From a virus, in the IMG/VR virus record IMGVR_UViG_3300043470_001428, positions 1 to 45,086 of that record: a stretch of DNA of 45,086 bases, one strand, 5' to 3'. Under the pieces are notes generated by a model. That model was not told the DNA's origin, did not search any database, and saw only the letters and a program-made list of their open reading frames with translations. Made by a program: the position numbers and the translations under genes. Below, piece by piece: positions 7,997 to 29,865 of this stretch (its first letter is position 1; every line of letters begins with the position of its first letter).

Positions 7997-8076
7997 ATAT
8001 TGTGTAAAAAACTACTCATTAGGGTGAACATCTTTTAATTATAGGATTCCTACCTATCCTAAATCTTGTAGTTTAG

Positions 8077-8149
8077 TGGGAAGACCAGGAGTTGAACCTG
8101 AATGGCTGGTTCTTCAAACCAGTGCATTGACCACCTATGCTATCTTCCC
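8077..8149 (-). tRNA. tRNA-Phe (GAA)
   Basis: Full cloverleaf on the minus strand: acceptor GGGAAGA pairs with TCTTCCC, D stem GCAT/ATGC with a GG-containing loop, anticodon stem CTGGT/ACCAG with loop TTGAAGA (anticodon GAA), T arm TCAGG-TTCAACT-CCTGG. The CCA end is not encoded. It is the last member of the array. Confidence 0.93.
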
Positions 8150-8153
8150 TTAT

Positions 8154-8244
8154 AAAATAATAAATACCGAATTAATCAAAATTCTTATGTTGTATTGCTT
8201 CCAACCACTCATACAAAACCATTGGGTAGGTTATTTATTATTTT
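8154..8244 (-). other. Structured spacer between tRNAs, closed by a 15-bp helix
   Basis: The gap between tRNA-Phe and tRNA-Glu is closed by an inverted repeat of 15 bp with one bulge (8154-8168 with 8229-8244). A nested 6-bp stem TTGTAT/ATACAA lies inside (8190-8195 with 8211-8216). There is no T-loop consensus and no anticodon arm, so it is not a normal tRNA. It could be a processing hairpin for the flanking tRNAs or a separate small RNA. The outer arms are AT-only apart from a GG/CC pair, so part of the match may be compositional. Confidence 0.3.
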
Positions 8245-8247
8245 TTG

Positions 8248-8319
8248 TACTGCATAGGGGATTTGAACCCCTGACCTCACATAGAAAGTGTGATGTGATA
8301 ACCCCTTCACTAATGCAGC
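8248..8319 (-). tRNA. tRNA-Glu (TTC)
   Basis: Cloverleaf of 72 bases: acceptor GCTGCAT pairs with ATGCAGT (one G-U pair), D stem GTGA/TCAC, anticodon stem TCACA/TGTGA, loop CTTTCTA with anticodon TTC, T arm AGGGG-TTCAAAT-CCCCT. Position 37 is T rather than the usual purine. CCA is not encoded. Confidence 0.88.
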
Positions 8320-8325
8320 AAATTG

Positions 8326-8396
8326 TAAATCTAACTGGATTTGAACCAATACAAACAGCTCCAAAAACTGTTGTGCTACCATTACACCATAGATTT
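8326..8396 (-). tRNA. tRNA-Gln (TTG)
   Basis: Cloverleaf of 71 bases: acceptor AAATCTA with TAGATTT, D stem GTGT/GCAC, anticodon stem ACAGT/GCTGT, loop TTTTGGA with anticodon TTG, T arm ATTGG-TTCAAAT-CCAGT. CCA is not encoded. It sits 6 bases upstream of tRNA-Glu in the transcript. Confidence 0.92.
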
Positions 8397-8400
8397 AATT

Positions 8401-8468
8401 TGATATACTATTTTTCCCATTAATTGTAGCCTATTTAGTTTATCCACAGTTGCTTACTCCGTATATCA
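8401..8468 (-). other. tRNA-sized element closed by 8-bp terminal helix, not a tRNA
   Basis: A 68-base stretch inside the tRNA array is closed by a perfect 8-bp helix, TGATATAC (8401-8408) with GTATATCA (8461-8468). The size and terminal stem imitate a tRNA, but there is no GTTCRA T-loop and no clear cloverleaf. Its 5' part on the minus strand, GGAGTAAGCA, also occurs at the 5' end of the tmRNA-like RNA near 40232. It may be a decayed tRNA or a distinct small RNA. Confidence 0.35.
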
Positions 8469-8486
8469 GGGAACACTATCTGTTTG

Positions 8487-8558
8487 CTGATGATGTAGGA
8501 CTTGAACCTACAACCTTCTGATTAACAGTCAGATGCTCTACCATTGAGCTAATCACCA
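8487..8558 (-). tRNA. tRNA-Asn (GTT)
   Basis: Cloverleaf of 72 bases: acceptor TGGTGAT with ATCATCA (one G-U), D stem GCTC/GAGC with loop AATGGTA, anticodon stem TCTGA/TCAGA, loop CTGTTAA with anticodon GTT, T arm GTAGG-TTCAAGT-CCTAC, discriminator G. CCA is not encoded. Confidence 0.94.
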
Positions 8559-21614: not shown

Positions 21615-22691
21615 TTAGAAGGGTAAATCTTCAACTTGTGGCTCTTCTGTATCATCAATTAAATTGATTACAGTTCTTCTTCTTGTAGTTGGTTCATCTA
21701 AAGGTTCATTTCCTAAAACACTATTAACAAATGCTTCTGCTGGAGTTACTGGATATTCATTATAAGAATCAGTAAAACTATTCAGAAGAGTAGAAGGATT
21801 AATTAAATTCTCATTTATCAATCTTCTTGATTCTTCTATATTAATAGAATTAAGATAATCAGCACTAATAGGATTAATAGGGTCAATAGCACCTCTTCTT
21901 CTCATTTGAGCTACAATACCTTCCATTTTAGGAATTTCTTCTTCCCATATAACCTCATCAGTTTTAATAGGAACAAATTTTCTTTGTCTATCCTCAATTT
22001 TACTACCTATTCCAGGATTAAAAGTTTTGAATTGTTCATTACTTTTAAACATAATATTACCTACATTATCTCTTAAATGATTTTGTAATTCATCTACAGT
22101 ATTGAATTTCAATTCAAACTCATTAGAATAAGTTAATTTTTCAATTTTAGAAGTTGTGGTAAATACTACTGGAATTTCAGCTTTGTAAGCATCTAAAATA
22201 TATTCTTTTTCTAATTTTTTATAGAAATTTGAATATACAGGATTAGTTAGTAATTCAGTAGAAATTAATAAAGTTAAATGTTTAGCATTTTCTTTAGGAA
22301 TTGAAACATTTGAATACCTTGATTGATAATGTAAACTTAATCTATCAGGTTTAGTAGTCAATACCATAAGAAGTTCATCTTTTTCATTAACTATATAACC
22401 TTTTGCTACATGAATTATTATCTTTTCTTCTCCTACACCTAAATTAAAAGGATATAAACCAACAGATTCATTTATCATTCCAAGAAAATCTCTTAAATTA
22501 AATTTTTTTGGTGAATTTTTATTTAATGCTGGTCTATTATAAATTATAAAGTCTCCTTCATAAATTCTTTGATGTCGAGAACCTTCTCTATGACAATTAA
22601 TTATAGGTATAAAATAAGAAGTAGCTGATGAACCAATTTTAAACTCATTACCAGAGAACTCACTACTATAAGTTTCAGTTAATTGTAACAT
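21615..22691 (-). CDS. Unknown protein of the ubiquitin-like cassette, with SIM-like and SSB-tail-like C-terminus
   Basis: 358 residues, not recognised as a family. The first 230 residues are alpha/beta (EKIIIHVAKGYIV, HLTLLISTELL). The rest is polar and probably disordered. The C-terminus has RRRTVINLIDDTEE (341-347 hydrophobic then acidic, like a SUMO-interaction motif) and ends VEDLPF, like the acidic DLPF tip of Bacteroidota SSB. It is directly downstream of the E1-like gene (2-base gap), so it is likely a substrate, adaptor or regulator of the ubiquitin-like system. The motif readings are inference. Confidence 0.6.
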   Translation of the reverse strand: MLQLTETYSSEFSGNEFKIGSSATSYFIPIINCHREGSRHQRIYEGDFIIYNRPALNKNSPKKFNLRDFLGMINESVGLYPFNLGVGEEKIIIHVAKGYIVNEKDELLMVLTTKPDRLSLHYQSRYSNVSIPKENAKHLTLLISTELLTNPVYSNFYKKLEKEYILDAYKAEIPVVFTTTSKIEKLTYSNEFELKFNTVDELQNHLRDNVGNIMFKSNEQFKTFNPGIGSKIEDRQRKFVPIKTDEVIWEEEIPKMEGIVAQMRRRGAIDPINPISADYLNSINIEESRRLINENLINPSTLLNSFTDSYNEYPVTPAEAFVNSVLGNEPLDEPTTRRRTVINLIDDTEEPQVEDLPF

Positions 22692-22693
22692 AT

Positions 22694-23371
22694 TTAAAAC
22701 TTATTAGTGGTTAAAGCTAAAGGAATAAAGAACTCGTGATAAAAGGGAACATCTCTCACAACTTCTCTTTCATATATGTTTGTCATGTGATTAGTGAAAA
22801 AAGCAGTCATTAAAGTAGCTATCATAGCTGCTGCATGTGAAGTTTGTTTCATTGTGCAAGGTGCATCTTCAACTTCTTCATCAGTAAATAATGTTTTTTC
22901 ATAATCTGCAATTCTGTCTGGAGTTACACAGAAAATTTGCAATTGTTCCATTTCTAATCTACCATCAATTAAAATAGGTGTTACTGCACAATTTTCAATA
23001 CTTCTTTTCCAGTTTTCAAACATATTTTTTCTTGCTAACATATTGTCAAAACCAGAAAACATAAAATAGTGAGTTGGAGAGTTTTCATCTATTCTATTGT
23101 TAAATCCTGACATTGAATCATTAGCAAATTCCTTAATAATTTCAGATAAGGCAGAAACTTTATGTTTCCCTACATCTGAAAGTCTAAATAATTGACCTCC
23201 TGTATTATGTTCTTCAATAATATCAAAGTCATATACAATTGGTTTAAATCCTGCTCTTGCAAGAAATAATGTGAGCCAAGAGGAAATTCCTCCTGCTCCA
23301 CCTACCATTACAGTTTCATTTTCTTTTGGAAACCAAGGGGCATCTTTAAATCTATTATACTGTTGTGTCAT
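22694..23371 (-). CDS. ThiF/E1-like adenylating enzyme
   Basis: 225 residues from ATG 23371 (a longer frame starts only at TTG). VGGAGGISSWL (23-33) is the Rossmann nucleotide loop, VYDFD (47-50) the acidic pair, EHNTGGQLF (54-62) the Asn/Gln motif, DVGKHKV (66-72) the catalytic Lys region, and SGFDNMLARK (106-115) the distal Asp/Arg. Cys172 in DAPCTMKQTSHAA is a candidate thioester cysteine. This is the complete adenylation set of ThiF/MoeB/E1 proteins that activate a ubiquitin-like C-terminus. It overlaps the JAB gene by 17 bases. It is smaller than eukaryotic E1 and lacks a separate Ub-fold domain. Confidence 0.82.
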   Translation of the reverse strand: MTQQYNRFKDAPWFPKENETVMVGGAGGISSWLTLFLARAGFKPIVYDFDIIEEHNTGGQLFRLSDVGKHKVSALSEIIKEFANDSMSGFNNRIDENSPTHYFMFSGFDNMLARKNMFENWKRSIENCAVTPILIDGRLEMEQLQIFCVTPDRIADYEKTLFTDEEVEDAPCTMKQTSHAAAMIATLMTAFFTNHMTNIYEREVVRDVPFYHEFFIPLALTTNKF

Positions 23372-24611
23372 TTTTCTCAAATTCTACAATCATAGCTTTA
23401 ATAGCTTCAATTGTTACATTAATAAATGGAAATTGCATAACTTCGTCTTCTAATAAATCAATTACAGTATATGTATCTTCAATAAATTCTTCATCAGTAG
23501 AATCAGGAAAATGTTTGTCATACAAAAATGTGTAATTTTCAATAACAGAGGAAGCAATTTGATAAGCATGTACTTCTAAATCTTCTAATAAAACTAAAGC
23601 ATCTTCAAGATTTTCATCAGGTTCAATAGGAGTAGTAAATTTCATTAACTCTACCAAGAATGTATCAATTGGACTTAATTCATCAATTTCTGATAAATCA
23701 TCAAAAGTTCTAAAATCAATCATAGAAGCAATATCTTTTATTTTTTTACCTCTTTTTGATAATTTACTTTCATCTATTTTATAATGCTTGATTTTGTTAG
23801 CTAATTTAGCATTTTCTAAATTATTTACTACTGGAATAGCAGTAGGAGTATTAGGAACAAATTTACCATTAATCCATTTACCATTACTAAATGCTGTATT
23901 AACAGCAGGATATGTGTGAGGAGTAAATTGTTTAATAGGTTTAGGTTTCATAATTTCCTTAACTCTATTATCAAATCCCTCTTCCACAATTACTTGTTCA
24001 AATGGAGAAATAATTTCACAATCATAGACAAACATTTTATCTTTTTTCAAAGTAATATTTGGTCTATCAATTATGTATTTAGTTCCATCTTCATCATTTG
24101 CTAAATATGGAATTTCTTTAATTTCTTGTTCTAAACTTGCTACAAAAGCAACTTTAGCCATAAAATCCATATAATTATTAACAATTAATGATAAATAAAA
24201 GTTGTGTGATGGAGAATTATCATTTAATTCAGCCATATCAGTACCAGAGAAAAACACAGCCATAGTATTATGACTATGAATATGACCTACATACCAATCC
24301 ATTCTTTTTTCATCTTCCATTAGATAATCAAGGTATCTATCATCAAGCTCATATTCTGTATAAGCTGATGTTCCTTTATCTAATGGTAAAATATCTTCCA
24401 GTTTTATTTTGAATGTTAGTGGGTCTTTAATACTACCTTCAATAGAGTAGAATAAAGCACCAGACCATTCATCTTTGTTTATATTTTTACAAAGGTACTT
24501 GATTTTGTTCAGAATCTCTTCTGACATAATTACTGGAAGTTTCAATGTAGTTAATTCCGCTACCTCTAACACAGGCTTTGTAAATTTCGGATTCGAGTTG
24601 TTTACAGACAT
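23355..24611 (-). CDS. JAB/JAMM metallo-isopeptidase
   Basis: 418 residues. The N-terminal domain has Glu48 (DEWSGALFY) and, near 107-120, GHIHSHNTMAVFFSGTDM, the HxH-x(n)-SxxD zinc motif of JAMM deubiquitinases. The second half is a phage-specific helical region with an acidic C-terminus. It would process the ubiquitin-like precursor or remove it from targets. It overlaps the E2-like gene by 125 bases if ATG 24611 is used. An internal ATG at 24527 would cut this to 41 bases but would remove a strand (TTLKLPVI) expected in the JAB fold. Confidence 0.85.
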   Translation of the reverse strand: MSVNNSNPKFTKPVLEVAELTTLKLPVIMSEEILNKIKYLCKNINKDEWSGALFYSIEGSIKDPLTFKIKLEDILPLDKGTSAYTEYELDDRYLDYLMEDEKRMDWYVGHIHSHNTMAVFFSGTDMAELNDNSPSHNFYLSLIVNNYMDFMAKVAFVASLEQEIKEIPYLANDEDGTKYIIDRPNITLKKDKMFVYDCEIISPFEQVIVEEGFDNRVKEIMKPKPIKQFTPHTYPAVNTAFSNGKWINGKFVPNTPTAIPVVNNLENAKLANKIKHYKIDESKLSKRGKKIKDIASMIDFRTFDDLSEIDELSPIDTFLVELMKFTTPIEPDENLEDALVLLEDLEVHAYQIASSVIENYTFLYDKHFPDSTDEEFIEDTYTVIDLLEDEVMQFPFINVTIEAIKAMIVEFEKNDTTV

Positions 24612-25743
24612 AATCTAAAAAATTAGGATAAATTCCATATTCGGAAATATCAATTGTTGTTATTTGTTCAATAGGTAATATATTGAAAGATAATTTCTTA
24701 CCTTGAATATATAGGAAAGGCATTTCACCAGAACCTTGTTCTTTTATTCTATTTGTGATTAATTGTGGACCAGAAATCATTTGTCCTATTTCAGGATATG
24801 TGTAAAATTCACCATCACTTCCTTTTTTGCAAACAACTTTTACAATATAATCTTTAAGATTTTCATTAGATAAAAATGCTTCTCTTAAATATTCTGTAAA
24901 AACAGAATCTTTTTTAATTTTATATATATTATCCATATATACAAAATTAAAAGGTAGTTTTTGTGAAACAGATAATTCATAATTTTGAAATTCTCTATAA
25001 ATACCTATAATATCAGATGTTTGAGTAGTAACTCTTATAGCTGCATATTCTACTGTTATTTCTCCTATTCTAAAATGAGGACCTCCTTCTAAACTTTCCC
25101 AAGCAACAAGAGAATCAATAGTATAAAGCATTAATTCAAATTTATCTGAATCAAATTCAGCAGATAATTCAATATCTAATTCTGATAAATCTTCTGAACC
25201 AATACAAAAGTTATTTGTAGTTAAACATTCACTAAAACCAGTAATTTTTGATATACCAGGTAGATGACTATGCATATATCCTCTATTCCATTCATCCTGT
25301 ACTAATGTTAATCTTGTACCTTGTACTCTTTTAGTATAAATACAATTATTATCAACACTAAAAGTAACAGGTAATACAACTACTAAATCTAATAGATTTC
25401 TTGATTGTTCACTACTATTTGTAATTTCTAATTTAGGATAATGAAAAATAAAACTTATTTCATAGTAATTTTTATCACTTATTCTTCTATTATTTAGATG
25501 AATATCCCACTTATCTACAAACTTTCTTTCAAAAACAGTAATTAATTCAAAAAGTTGTTCTGTAAAAATAGCATAGTTTCTTTTATGCAGAATTTCAGGT
25601 CTATCATTTGAACTAATATAGCATATTTTACCTTTATCAATCATCTTTTTTAACCAATTTCTATTTCTGGTTAATCCTGATATTCTTGCTGAACTAATAT
25701 AGTTTTGAAACTTATTAGATGATTTATTAATTTTTAAATCCAT
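24487..25743 (-). CDS. Putative E2-like protein of the ubiquitin-like cassette
   Basis: 418 residues. The middle has alternating strands (EISFIFHYPKLEITN, LDLVVVLPVTFSV, RVQGTRLTLVQDEW), then GYMHSHLPG (His158, His160) and NNFCIGSEDLSELD (Cys180), then LVAWESLEGGPHFRI. Strands followed by a His-Pro-type flap and a Cys-Ile-Gly match the E2/RWD layout, in which the Cys accepts the ubiquitin-like protein. A PRTRC-system B-type protein is the main alternative. The remaining 200 residues are unrecognised. It lies between the ubiquitin-like and JAB genes, which supports a conjugation role. The E2 call is inference. Confidence 0.55.
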   Translation of the reverse strand: MDLKINKSSNKFQNYISSARISGLTRNRNWLKKMIDKGKICYISSNDRPEILHKRNYAIFTEQLFELITVFERKFVDKWDIHLNNRRISDKNYYEISFIFHYPKLEITNSSEQSRNLLDLVVVLPVTFSVDNNCIYTKRVQGTRLTLVQDEWNRGYMHSHLPGISKITGFSECLTTNNFCIGSEDLSELDIELSAEFDSDKFELMLYTIDSLVAWESLEGGPHFRIGEITVEYAAIRVTTQTSDIIGIYREFQNYELSVSQKLPFNFVYMDNIYKIKKDSVFTEYLREAFLSNENLKDYIVKVVCKKGSDGEFYTYPEIGQMISGPQLITNRIKEQGSGEMPFLYIQGKKLSFNILPIEQITTIDISEYGIYPNFLDYVCKQLESEIYKACVRGSGINYIETSSNYVRRDSEQNQVPL

Positions 25744-25758
25744 TTTTTGAAGTAATTA

Positions 25759-25790
25759 AAAAAGCTCTTTACTTATGTAAAGAGCTTTTT
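25759..25790 (-). terminator. Intrinsic terminator between the ubiquitin-like gene and the enzyme genes
   Basis: Perfect 14-bp stem (25759-25772 with 25777-25790) with a TTAT loop, followed on the minus strand by a T run. It lies between the ubiquitin-like gene and the E2-like gene and probably keeps the modifier more abundant than its enzymes. Confidence 0.92.
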
Positions 25791-25808
25791 GTTATAGAAA
25801 TGAAAAGA

Positions 25809-26681
25809 TTATCCAAACATTTTAGCTTCAGCAGCTAATCTGTCATCTTCTTCTTTTTCAAGTCTTTTTTGTTCTTCTTTTTCAGCTTTTTCAGTAGCAA
25901 TTTTTTCTTGCTCTTCTTTTTCAGCTTTTTCTCTTGCAATTCTTCTACCTTCATCTTCAGGAGATTCATTATCTTTTGAAGCAGCAACAGAAGCTACTAC
26001 ATCTGCAACAGTTGTTACAGTAGCAGTATCATCATTTTCAACTTCTTCTTTTAAACCAGGTAAATAATCATCAAGAATTTCATTTGCTCTATCAGAAACA
26101 TCTTCATTTTCTGTATTATCACAAATTTCTTTTAATAAAGTTTCAACTTGTTCAACTCTATCAGCATTTGTAATAGTTCTTACAGGAGTAGAAGGAGTTT
26201 CTGTTACTGTAGTAGTTTCAGTAGCTACAGGAGCAACTTCTTCTTTAACATCTGCTTTTGCAGCACCAGAAGGAGCAACAAAAGTGTTTAATAACTCTCT
26301 CAAGATTTCAGTACCTTTTGTAGTATAGTTTTTTTCTTGATTATAGTGAGCATCTGCTGCTTCTTTAAAAGAAGTAAAATCATCTTTGATAACAGCTTTA
26401 ATATCTTTATAAGATAAACCATCTCCTCTACCACCAGATTTAACTTGTTTAGGTCTCATAAAAACAGTAAAATCACCTGCTGGTAATACTGCTGCATCAT
26501 TAACAAGGTCTGTTTTGTTAATGTTTTCTGTAGCATGTAATTTGTCAAGGTCATAACCTTCACTTTTAATCAGAGATTTTAATTCACCCCAAGTTGAAAC
26601 TTCTGTTTCCAATTTTGCTTTTTTTGCTCCTTTTGTAGCATAAAGTGTAATAACTCTTGCTGTACTTGTTTGTGTACTCAT
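25809..26681 (-). CDS. Ubiquitin-like (beta-grasp) modifier precursor
   Basis: 290 residues. Residues 8-82 fit a beta-grasp: ARVITLYATKGAKKAKLETE (two strands), WGELKSLIKSEGYD (helix), then LPAGDFTVFMRPKQVKSGG (closing strand and Lys-Ser-Gly83-Gly84). The GG is internal, followed by a helical region (90-140), a Thr/Val/Ala-rich linker and a long Glu/Lys/Arg coiled coil to the end. The JAB enzyme could cleave after Gly84 to expose a conjugatable tail, or the domain could act uncleaved. Its own terminator and its position before E2-, JAB- and E1-like genes support the modifier role. The beta-grasp call rests on pattern, not alignment. Confidence 0.68.
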   Translation of the reverse strand: MSTQTSTARVITLYATKGAKKAKLETEVSTWGELKSLIKSEGYDLDKLHATENINKTDLVNDAAVLPAGDFTVFMRPKQVKSGGRGDGLSYKDIKAVIKDDFTSFKEAADAHYNQEKNYTTKGTEILRELLNTFVAPSGAAKADVKEEVAPVATETTTVTETPSTPVRTITNADRVEQVETLLKEICDNTENEDVSDRANEILDDYLPGLKEEVENDDTATVTTVADVVASVAASKDNESPEDEGRRIAREKAEKEEQEKIATEKAEKEEQKRLEKEEDDRLAAEAKMFG

Positions 26682-29327: not shown

Positions 29328-29684
29328 TTACCAAGTACCATTAGCACTTGTAGGAGCAGTAACAGCTTCTTCTGCTGTTTCACCTACAATTACATCATCT
29401 TGATTCTCTTCAACTGTATCAATTACTTCTTGTACAGCTTCTTCTTCAAAAGCTACTTCTTGAGTAGTATTTGCTTCACCATCTGTATCATCAATTAAGT
29501 TGATAGCAAATTGTTTTTTTGCTTTACGATTTTTCAATTTTGGATGTTGCCATACAGTTGCTTTCATAGCACTTACAGTTTCTCCGAAATGAGCAGCAAT
29601 TTCTTCTCTGCTTTTACCTTCATCTAATAAAGCTAATACTGCTGATACAGTAATATCTTTTTTAACTTCTTGTTCTACTGACAT
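29328..29684 (-). CDS. HTH DNA-binding protein with SIM-like motif
   Basis: 118 residues from ATG 29684 (a longer TTG-initiated frame would overlap the small membrane gene). Residues 12-47 form a helix-turn-helix (AVLALLDEGKSREEIAAHFG). A basic linker KNRKAKKQ is followed by AINLIDDT (60-67), identical in seven residues to the end of the cassette protein at 21615-22691. The rest is acidic and disordered, ending NGTW. Likely a transcription or replication regulator. Confidence 0.65.
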   Translation of the reverse strand: MSVEQEVKKDITVSAVLALLDEGKSREEIAAHFGETVSAMKATVWQHPKLKNRKAKKQFAINLIDDTDGEANTTQEVAFEEEAVQEVIDTVEENQDDVIVGETAEEAVTAPTSANGTW

Positions 29685-29697
29685 AATATAAACTAAT

Positions 29698-29865
29698 TTA
29701 ATTTTTAAATGTTTTTTCAAGCTCTTTTGCTTCTTGAGCTAATCTTTTGTTTTCTTCCTCTTCATAAGAAGTTTCTTTTGCTGTTTTAGATAAAAACAAC
29801 ATTAAAATGAGACCTATATTTAAGAGAATACTAACTACAAGAAAGAATATTAGTAATTTTTGCAT
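29698..29865 (-). CDS. Small single-pass membrane protein, 55 residues
   Basis: ATG 29865 to TAA 29698. Residues 4-25 (LLIFFLVVSILLNIGLILML) form one transmembrane helix, then a charged Glu/Lys-rich helix. It fills the gap between the ATPase and HTH genes and starts 8 bases after the ATPase stop. Possible roles are membrane anchoring of the replisome or a holin-like effect; neither can be shown. Confidence 0.6.
   Translation of the reverse strand: MQKLLIFFLVVSILLNIGLILMLFLSKTAKETSYEEEENKRLAQEAKELEKTFKN

Follow-up and report, generated by a model that had tools for sequence, protein, structure and literature searches.

A probable reversible ubiquitin-like conjugation pathway in the replication gene block of Flavobacterium phages and crAss001-type relatives

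Ubiquitin-like systems of bacteria have so far been known mostly as host defenses or plasmid modules. A cluster of genes in the IMG/VR virus record IMGVR_UViG_3300043470_001428 (positions 1 to 45,086; this whole stretch of 45,086 nucleotides is termed the window here) raises the question of whether a bacterial virus might run such a pathway for itself. Between positions 26681 and 21615, the window holds five consecutive open reading frames (ORFs), all on the minus strand, which we name, in that order, U, B, J, E, and X. On balance, we think it probable that with these genes the phage encodes its own reversible pathway of ubiquitin-like conjugation, one belonging to the core of the replication gene block; the gene set of this phage, crAss001, and about a hundred relatives suggests that the virus may tag proteins during infection. 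If this is true, bacterial viruses, among them crAss001, which can be cultured, and phages infecting a fish pathogen, tag proteins by a pathway of their own, a function is given to "ThiF," "metalloprotease," and hypothetical genes of abundant gut phages, and the history of ubiquitin gains a ubiquitin-like protein (Ubl)/E2 pair that sequence searches had missed. The system is directly testable in existing phage-host pairs.

Genomic setting and conservation of the gene set

The first-pass annotation of this DNA had described a run of five minus-strand genes lying inside a replication operon, and both points were borne out. Identical gene calls were obtained in Flavobacterium phage FpV4, and the set is bordered by UDG/primase genes on one side and nuclease genes on the other, with helicases and a DNA polymerase also encoded in the surrounding block. 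The window, at ~90% nucleotide identity across this region, is closely related to FpV4 and Fpv1-20, phages of Flavobacterium psychrophilum, and all 29 nucleotide match records are Flavobacterium phages. The label "crAss-like," also given to this phage previously, is acceptable in a loose sense only, because the F. psychrophilum phages, Fpv3 among them, belong to none of the five named crAss-like groups (PMC7886860). The frames of B and J overlap by 125 nt (window 24487-24611), and B and J likewise share sequence in 81 of 85 loci (median overlap, 101 nt), figures that may be overstated as the ORFs were taken from the first possible start. Elsewhere, at 8076-8558, the window carries four phage tRNA genes, for Phe, Glu(UUC), Gln(UUG), and Asn.

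Using E or J as bait, we retrieved 111 phage loci, in which members of U-B-J-E are absent only at contig ends, apart from one contig fragment with E only. The order U-B-J-E is found in 85/85 loci with all four genes; in four further loci, U is missing where the contig stops, and a single short contig has E alone. An independent scan seeded with J added 26 loci missed with E, with U and B present in 26/26 and E wherever the contig continues. Moreover, profiles made without Steigviridae sequences find all five proteins, including X, at the matching place in crAss001-type phages. Among named phage records, the J family is confined to Steigviridae, Fipvunavirus, and a few unclassified relatives, and a scan of bacterial genomes with E recovered one 3.7-kb contig in a Spirochaetia metagenome-assembled genome, which is probably phage. 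The expectation that these genes would be kept as a set in relatives is therefore upheld: U-B-J-E belongs to the core of the replication block, where divergent phages retain it as a unit, and is not an accessory island.

This conservation bears on a counter-defense role, in which the set would interfere with CBASS or Bil-type ubiquitin-like defenses of the host, e.g., through J stripping host-made conjugates or U and B competing with them. Bacterial E1-E2/JAB systems do work in antiphage defense (PMC10097602), and J and E weakly match the defense JAB and E1-E2 models, but a lone protease would be enough for such a purpose, and very divergent phages maintain the whole set within their replication blocks, unlike the patchy anti-defense islands. 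Because the set is a conserved core module rather than an accessory island, we do not favor the counter-strategy cassette put forward earlier and regard it as rather unlikely.

The predicted modifier and its candidate processing protease

U (290 aa; 25809..26681, minus strand) gave no credible match in Pfam, NCBIfam, PADLOC, or PDB sequence searches. An AlphaFold2 model built from a 58-member alignment, however, shows a beta-beta-alpha-beta-beta arrangement at residues 9-77 (pLDDT >90 through most of it), and its best PDB matches in Foldseek are nearly all ubiquitin, UBX, SUMO, or ISG15 (E of about 3e-3 to 1e-2; probability mostly 1.0). Thus, the beta-grasp fold proposed for residues 8-82 holds at the level of predicted structure, and we delimit a Ubl domain at residues 9-77. 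Directly after the last strand, the family alignment displays a near-invariant Lys-Ser-Gly (K in 69/71, S in 67/71, and G in 70/71 sequences), which corresponds to K81-S82-G83 in U (26433..26441, minus strand) and which, from its conservation and the short U proteins described next, we predict to be the site of cleavage and conjugation. The sequence downstream (tail, residues 84-290) is hypervariable; purifying selection on the Ubl domain is strong, and it is stronger up to Gly83 (dN/dS of 0.14) than in the tail (0.35). In divergent phages, the whole of U comprises 77-91 residues, with the stop 1-6 residues past the Gly of the motif; examples of such C termini, each running to the stop codon, are ...TKSGE, ...KVKSGK, ...EVKSGI, ...MAAGH, ...KVKSGNKN, ...KVKSGNEKKH, and ...KTKSGLINQ. 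Neither the KSG motif nor the hypervariable tail had figured in the earlier sequence-only reading.

The near-invariant KSG after the last strand, the hypervariable tail that follows it, and the short forms stopping just past the Gly make U look like the precursor of a modifier, with J the most likely protease to cut it after Gly83. That no short U among those listed terminates exactly on the Gly likewise fits a precursor that needs proteolytic maturation. At two loci (L090 and L091), a separate small ORF follows the short U and may be a split-off tail (a weak match; E of 0.015).

The candidate for this processing step, J (418 aa; 23355..24611, minus strand), is a JAMM/JAB metalloprotease, predicted to serve both as the U-processing protease and as an isopeptidase. 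Prok-JAB was recovered at E <= 0.01 in 23 of 46 family members, and profile comparison linked J to PRTRC A (1e-8). The JAMM motif is complete, as had been claimed from the sequence: H112-S-H114-x7-S122-x2-D125 (24237..24278, minus strand) and the upstream E48 (codon at 24468-24470) are each kept in 76/76 informative homologues. J is under strong purifying selection.

The activating enzyme

E (228 aa; 22694..23380, minus strand) matches Pfam ThiF (4.3e-12), which identifies it as a compact ThiF/E1-type activating enzyme, and its profile aligns over nearly the full length with that of PRTRC ThiF (3e-16), with the Cys of both families in register. Across 77 homologues, G28, G30, D53, N59, Q63, K74, and D112 are invariant, while G31 is found in 74/77 and C175, the predicted catalytic Cys (codon at 22856..22858, minus strand), in 75/75. 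E thereby combines a GxGGxG-type Rossmann site and the acidic and Lys nucleotide residues with a predicted catalytic Cys. The earlier description of its E1 motifs as complete stands for the nucleotide-site residues and C175 and needs correction at one position, because Gly62 (G in 75/77 homologues) takes the place of the N-x-x-R-Q Arg when E is aligned with PRTRC ThiF, a departure that weighs against the conjugation reading. The dN/dS of 0.037 points to strong purifying selection.

A ThiF-type enzyme could also belong to sulfur metabolism. U would then be a ThiS/MoaD/Urm1-like sulfur carrier that E converts to a thiocarboxylate for tRNA thiolation or some other sulfur product, with J merely trimming U and B doing something else. 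E scores well on ThiF models, and the tRNA-Glu(UUC) and tRNA-Gln(UUG) encoded in the window belong to classes that are thiolated by sulfur-carrier systems elsewhere. JAB proteases, too, are present in some sulfur operons (PMC1779556). However, the predicted mature end of U is Ser-Gly and not Gly-Gly (a feature that counts against the conjugation reading as well), B, with its E2-like features, is always linked, and no rhodanese or thiouridylase was recognized in the subset of genes of the block that was scanned. We therefore consider a sulfur carrier quite improbable.

The probable E2

If U is instead conjugated to proteins, B (418 aa; 24487..25743, minus strand) is the candidate for the E2-like conjugating enzyme. 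Pfam, NCBIfam, PADLOC, and PDB sequence searches gave it no meaningful match, to an E2 family or otherwise, and its matches in the viral structure library were only to phage relatives without an assigned function. Its predicted structure (mean pLDDT, 87.7; pTM, 0.80) runs through a helix (54-74), four strands (79-88, 91-108, 114-129, and 141-148), the stretch Y-M-H-S-H160, the motif C180-x-G182, and two helices (185-195 and 199-214), which is the order of elements in an E2 domain with its active-site Cys. The top PDB matches of the model are weak ones to the UEV domains of TSG101 (E of 0.07; probability, 0.44-0.75); UEV domains are E2 variants. In the homologues, H160 (codon at 25264-25266, minus strand; 77/77), the predicted active-site residue C180 (25204..25206, minus strand; 76/76), and G182 are invariant. 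Profile comparison with PRTRC B was not significant, and a profile restricted to the B core scored PRTRC B no higher than shuffled sequences; the best 17 columns coincide with the Cys motifs of both families (FCIGS/VCLGS), which is only suggestive. The first-pass assignment of B as an E2 thus draws on the E2-like order of elements, the invariant His and Cys, and the gene order, and is weakened by the missing E2 family match and the weak PDB match. We conclude that B is probably an E2, an identity that is less secure than that of the modifier, resting as it does on a predicted fold, the His/Cys motif, and gene order.

In the 229-kb Xanthomonas phage PhiXhv-15 (locus L017, 5256-8630), a related E1 gene lies directly downstream of a gene for an 892-aa protein, unrecognized by Pfam, that contains IHPHM...SLCLGS, a segment resembling an E2 active site.

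The fifth gene and the proposed pathway

X (358 aa; 21615..22691, minus strand) lies downstream of E in most relatives and is a conserved partner for which no Pfam family was found. A profile of it built without crAss sequences matches crAss001-type phages at 9e-8 to 9e-4. It is fast evolving (dN/dS of 0.39) and genetically linked to the set. Near its C terminus (window 21648-21668), X has the motif I-x-L-[IV]-D-D-T-[ED], which forms the C-terminal end of X in many relatives and recurs at 29484-29504 in a small gene (29328-29720). The motif resembles a SUMO-interacting motif and, speculatively, might bind U.

From these assignments, we propose the following pathway. U would be synthesized as a precursor, which J would cleave after Gly83 to leave a single-Gly C terminus (...KSG). 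E would adenylate Gly83 with ATP and then take U onto Cys175 as a thioester, from which U would be handed to Cys180 of B. As the presumed E2, B would transfer U to lysines or other groups on targets, and J would also remove U from them. X could serve as an adaptor or in binding the targets. Neither an E3 nor a target was recognized, which weighs against the scheme; the gene context leads us to guess at proteins of phage replication, or host proteins encountered there, as the targets. The fuller proposal, namely, that this is a complete viral pathway whose modifier and E2 are unrelatable by sequence to known ones, that it tags replication or host proteins during infection, and that a clade of gut and water phages, crAss001 among them, depends on it for growth, is one that we hold tentatively, at somewhat less than even confidence.

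The same genes might instead serve a single dedicated modification, with E and B attaching U to one partner only, for example X or a protein of replication, so that a complex is assembled. That no E3 was recognized would suit this arrangement, as would the linkage and rapid evolution of X and the fact that the PDB entries matching E best include MccB, an E1-like enzyme that modifies a peptide. Yet no target motif is known, and the unfailing retention of J, a putative isopeptidase, points to tagging that can be reversed; we think a dedicated modification unlikely.

Relationship to known systems

The closest known kind of system is the PRTRC, or "6d," operon. The order Ubl-E2-JAB-E1 described for operon type "6d" by Iyer et al. 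(2006) (PMC1779556) is that of the phage set, E and J are distant homologs of PRTRC ThiF and PRTRC A, and PRTRC C has a Lys-Gly terminus, in some cases briefly extended, which may be compared with the end of phage U. In contrast, profile comparisons of U with PRTRC C and of B with PRTRC B were not significant, U is long-tailed in most phages, and the conserved His of B precedes its Cys, whereas that of the 6d E2 follows it (PMC1779556). PRTRC F, which sits between C and B in the plasmid operons, has no counterpart in the phage set, and neither ParB nor PRTRC E adjoins it. In NCBIfam, the curated cutoffs were missed for PRTRC_ThiF (29.5 versus 144.75 bits) and PRTRC_A (13.1 versus 101.8), and the models for PRTRC B and C gave no match. 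We therefore rejected PRTRC membership, since U and B are unmatched, the cutoffs are missed, and F, ParB, and PRTRC E are absent from the set; by analogy, the phage set may work like a PRTRC operon without being a member. Separately, a record named "Bacteriophage sp." (MT839883; locus L103, 52-3275) has PRTRC-like C and B and a partial ThiF together with a transposase-like gene, and has the appearance of a mobile element from a bacterium, not of a phage.

Comparisons with other systems are more limited. CBASS Cap2/Cap3 likewise brings E1, E2-like, and JAB functions together, and E matches Cap2 weakly (3e-5), but the phage has its E1 and E2-like functions in separate genes, not in an E2-E1 fusion as in CBASS, and a modifier of its own; no CD-NTase was recognized next to the set among the genes scanned. 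Among PDB sequences, UBA5, from the UFM1/UBA5 pathway, ranks first as a match to E (1e-10), but MccB scores equally well, and there is no sign of special kinship. In UFM1, processing exposes a single C-terminal Gly; this is done by cysteine proteases, in place of which the phage set has a JAMM protease. Finally, the lambda-type tail Ubl (TAPI) with its JAB protease provides a precedent for a phage Ubl with a predicted cut after Gly, but it belongs to tail assembly genes, and its described neighborhoods are without E1 or E2 (PMC1779556). In the open-license literature, we found, as a soft negative, no description of the present system or of ubiquitin or ThiF in crAss phages.

Mobile elements in the set

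The set has been invaded by mobile elements on three occasions. In Fpv20 (L184, 3012-4007), the JAMM gene is interrupted exactly at its HSH motif by a 1-kb insert that carries an endonuclease gene; in cr106_1 (L019, 2005-2520), an HNH endonuclease gene lies just downstream of the KSG codons of U; and at a third locus (L116, 8060-8340), a group I intron (Rfam, 2e-21) is situated between J and that portion of E which was detected, and so probably lies within the E gene.
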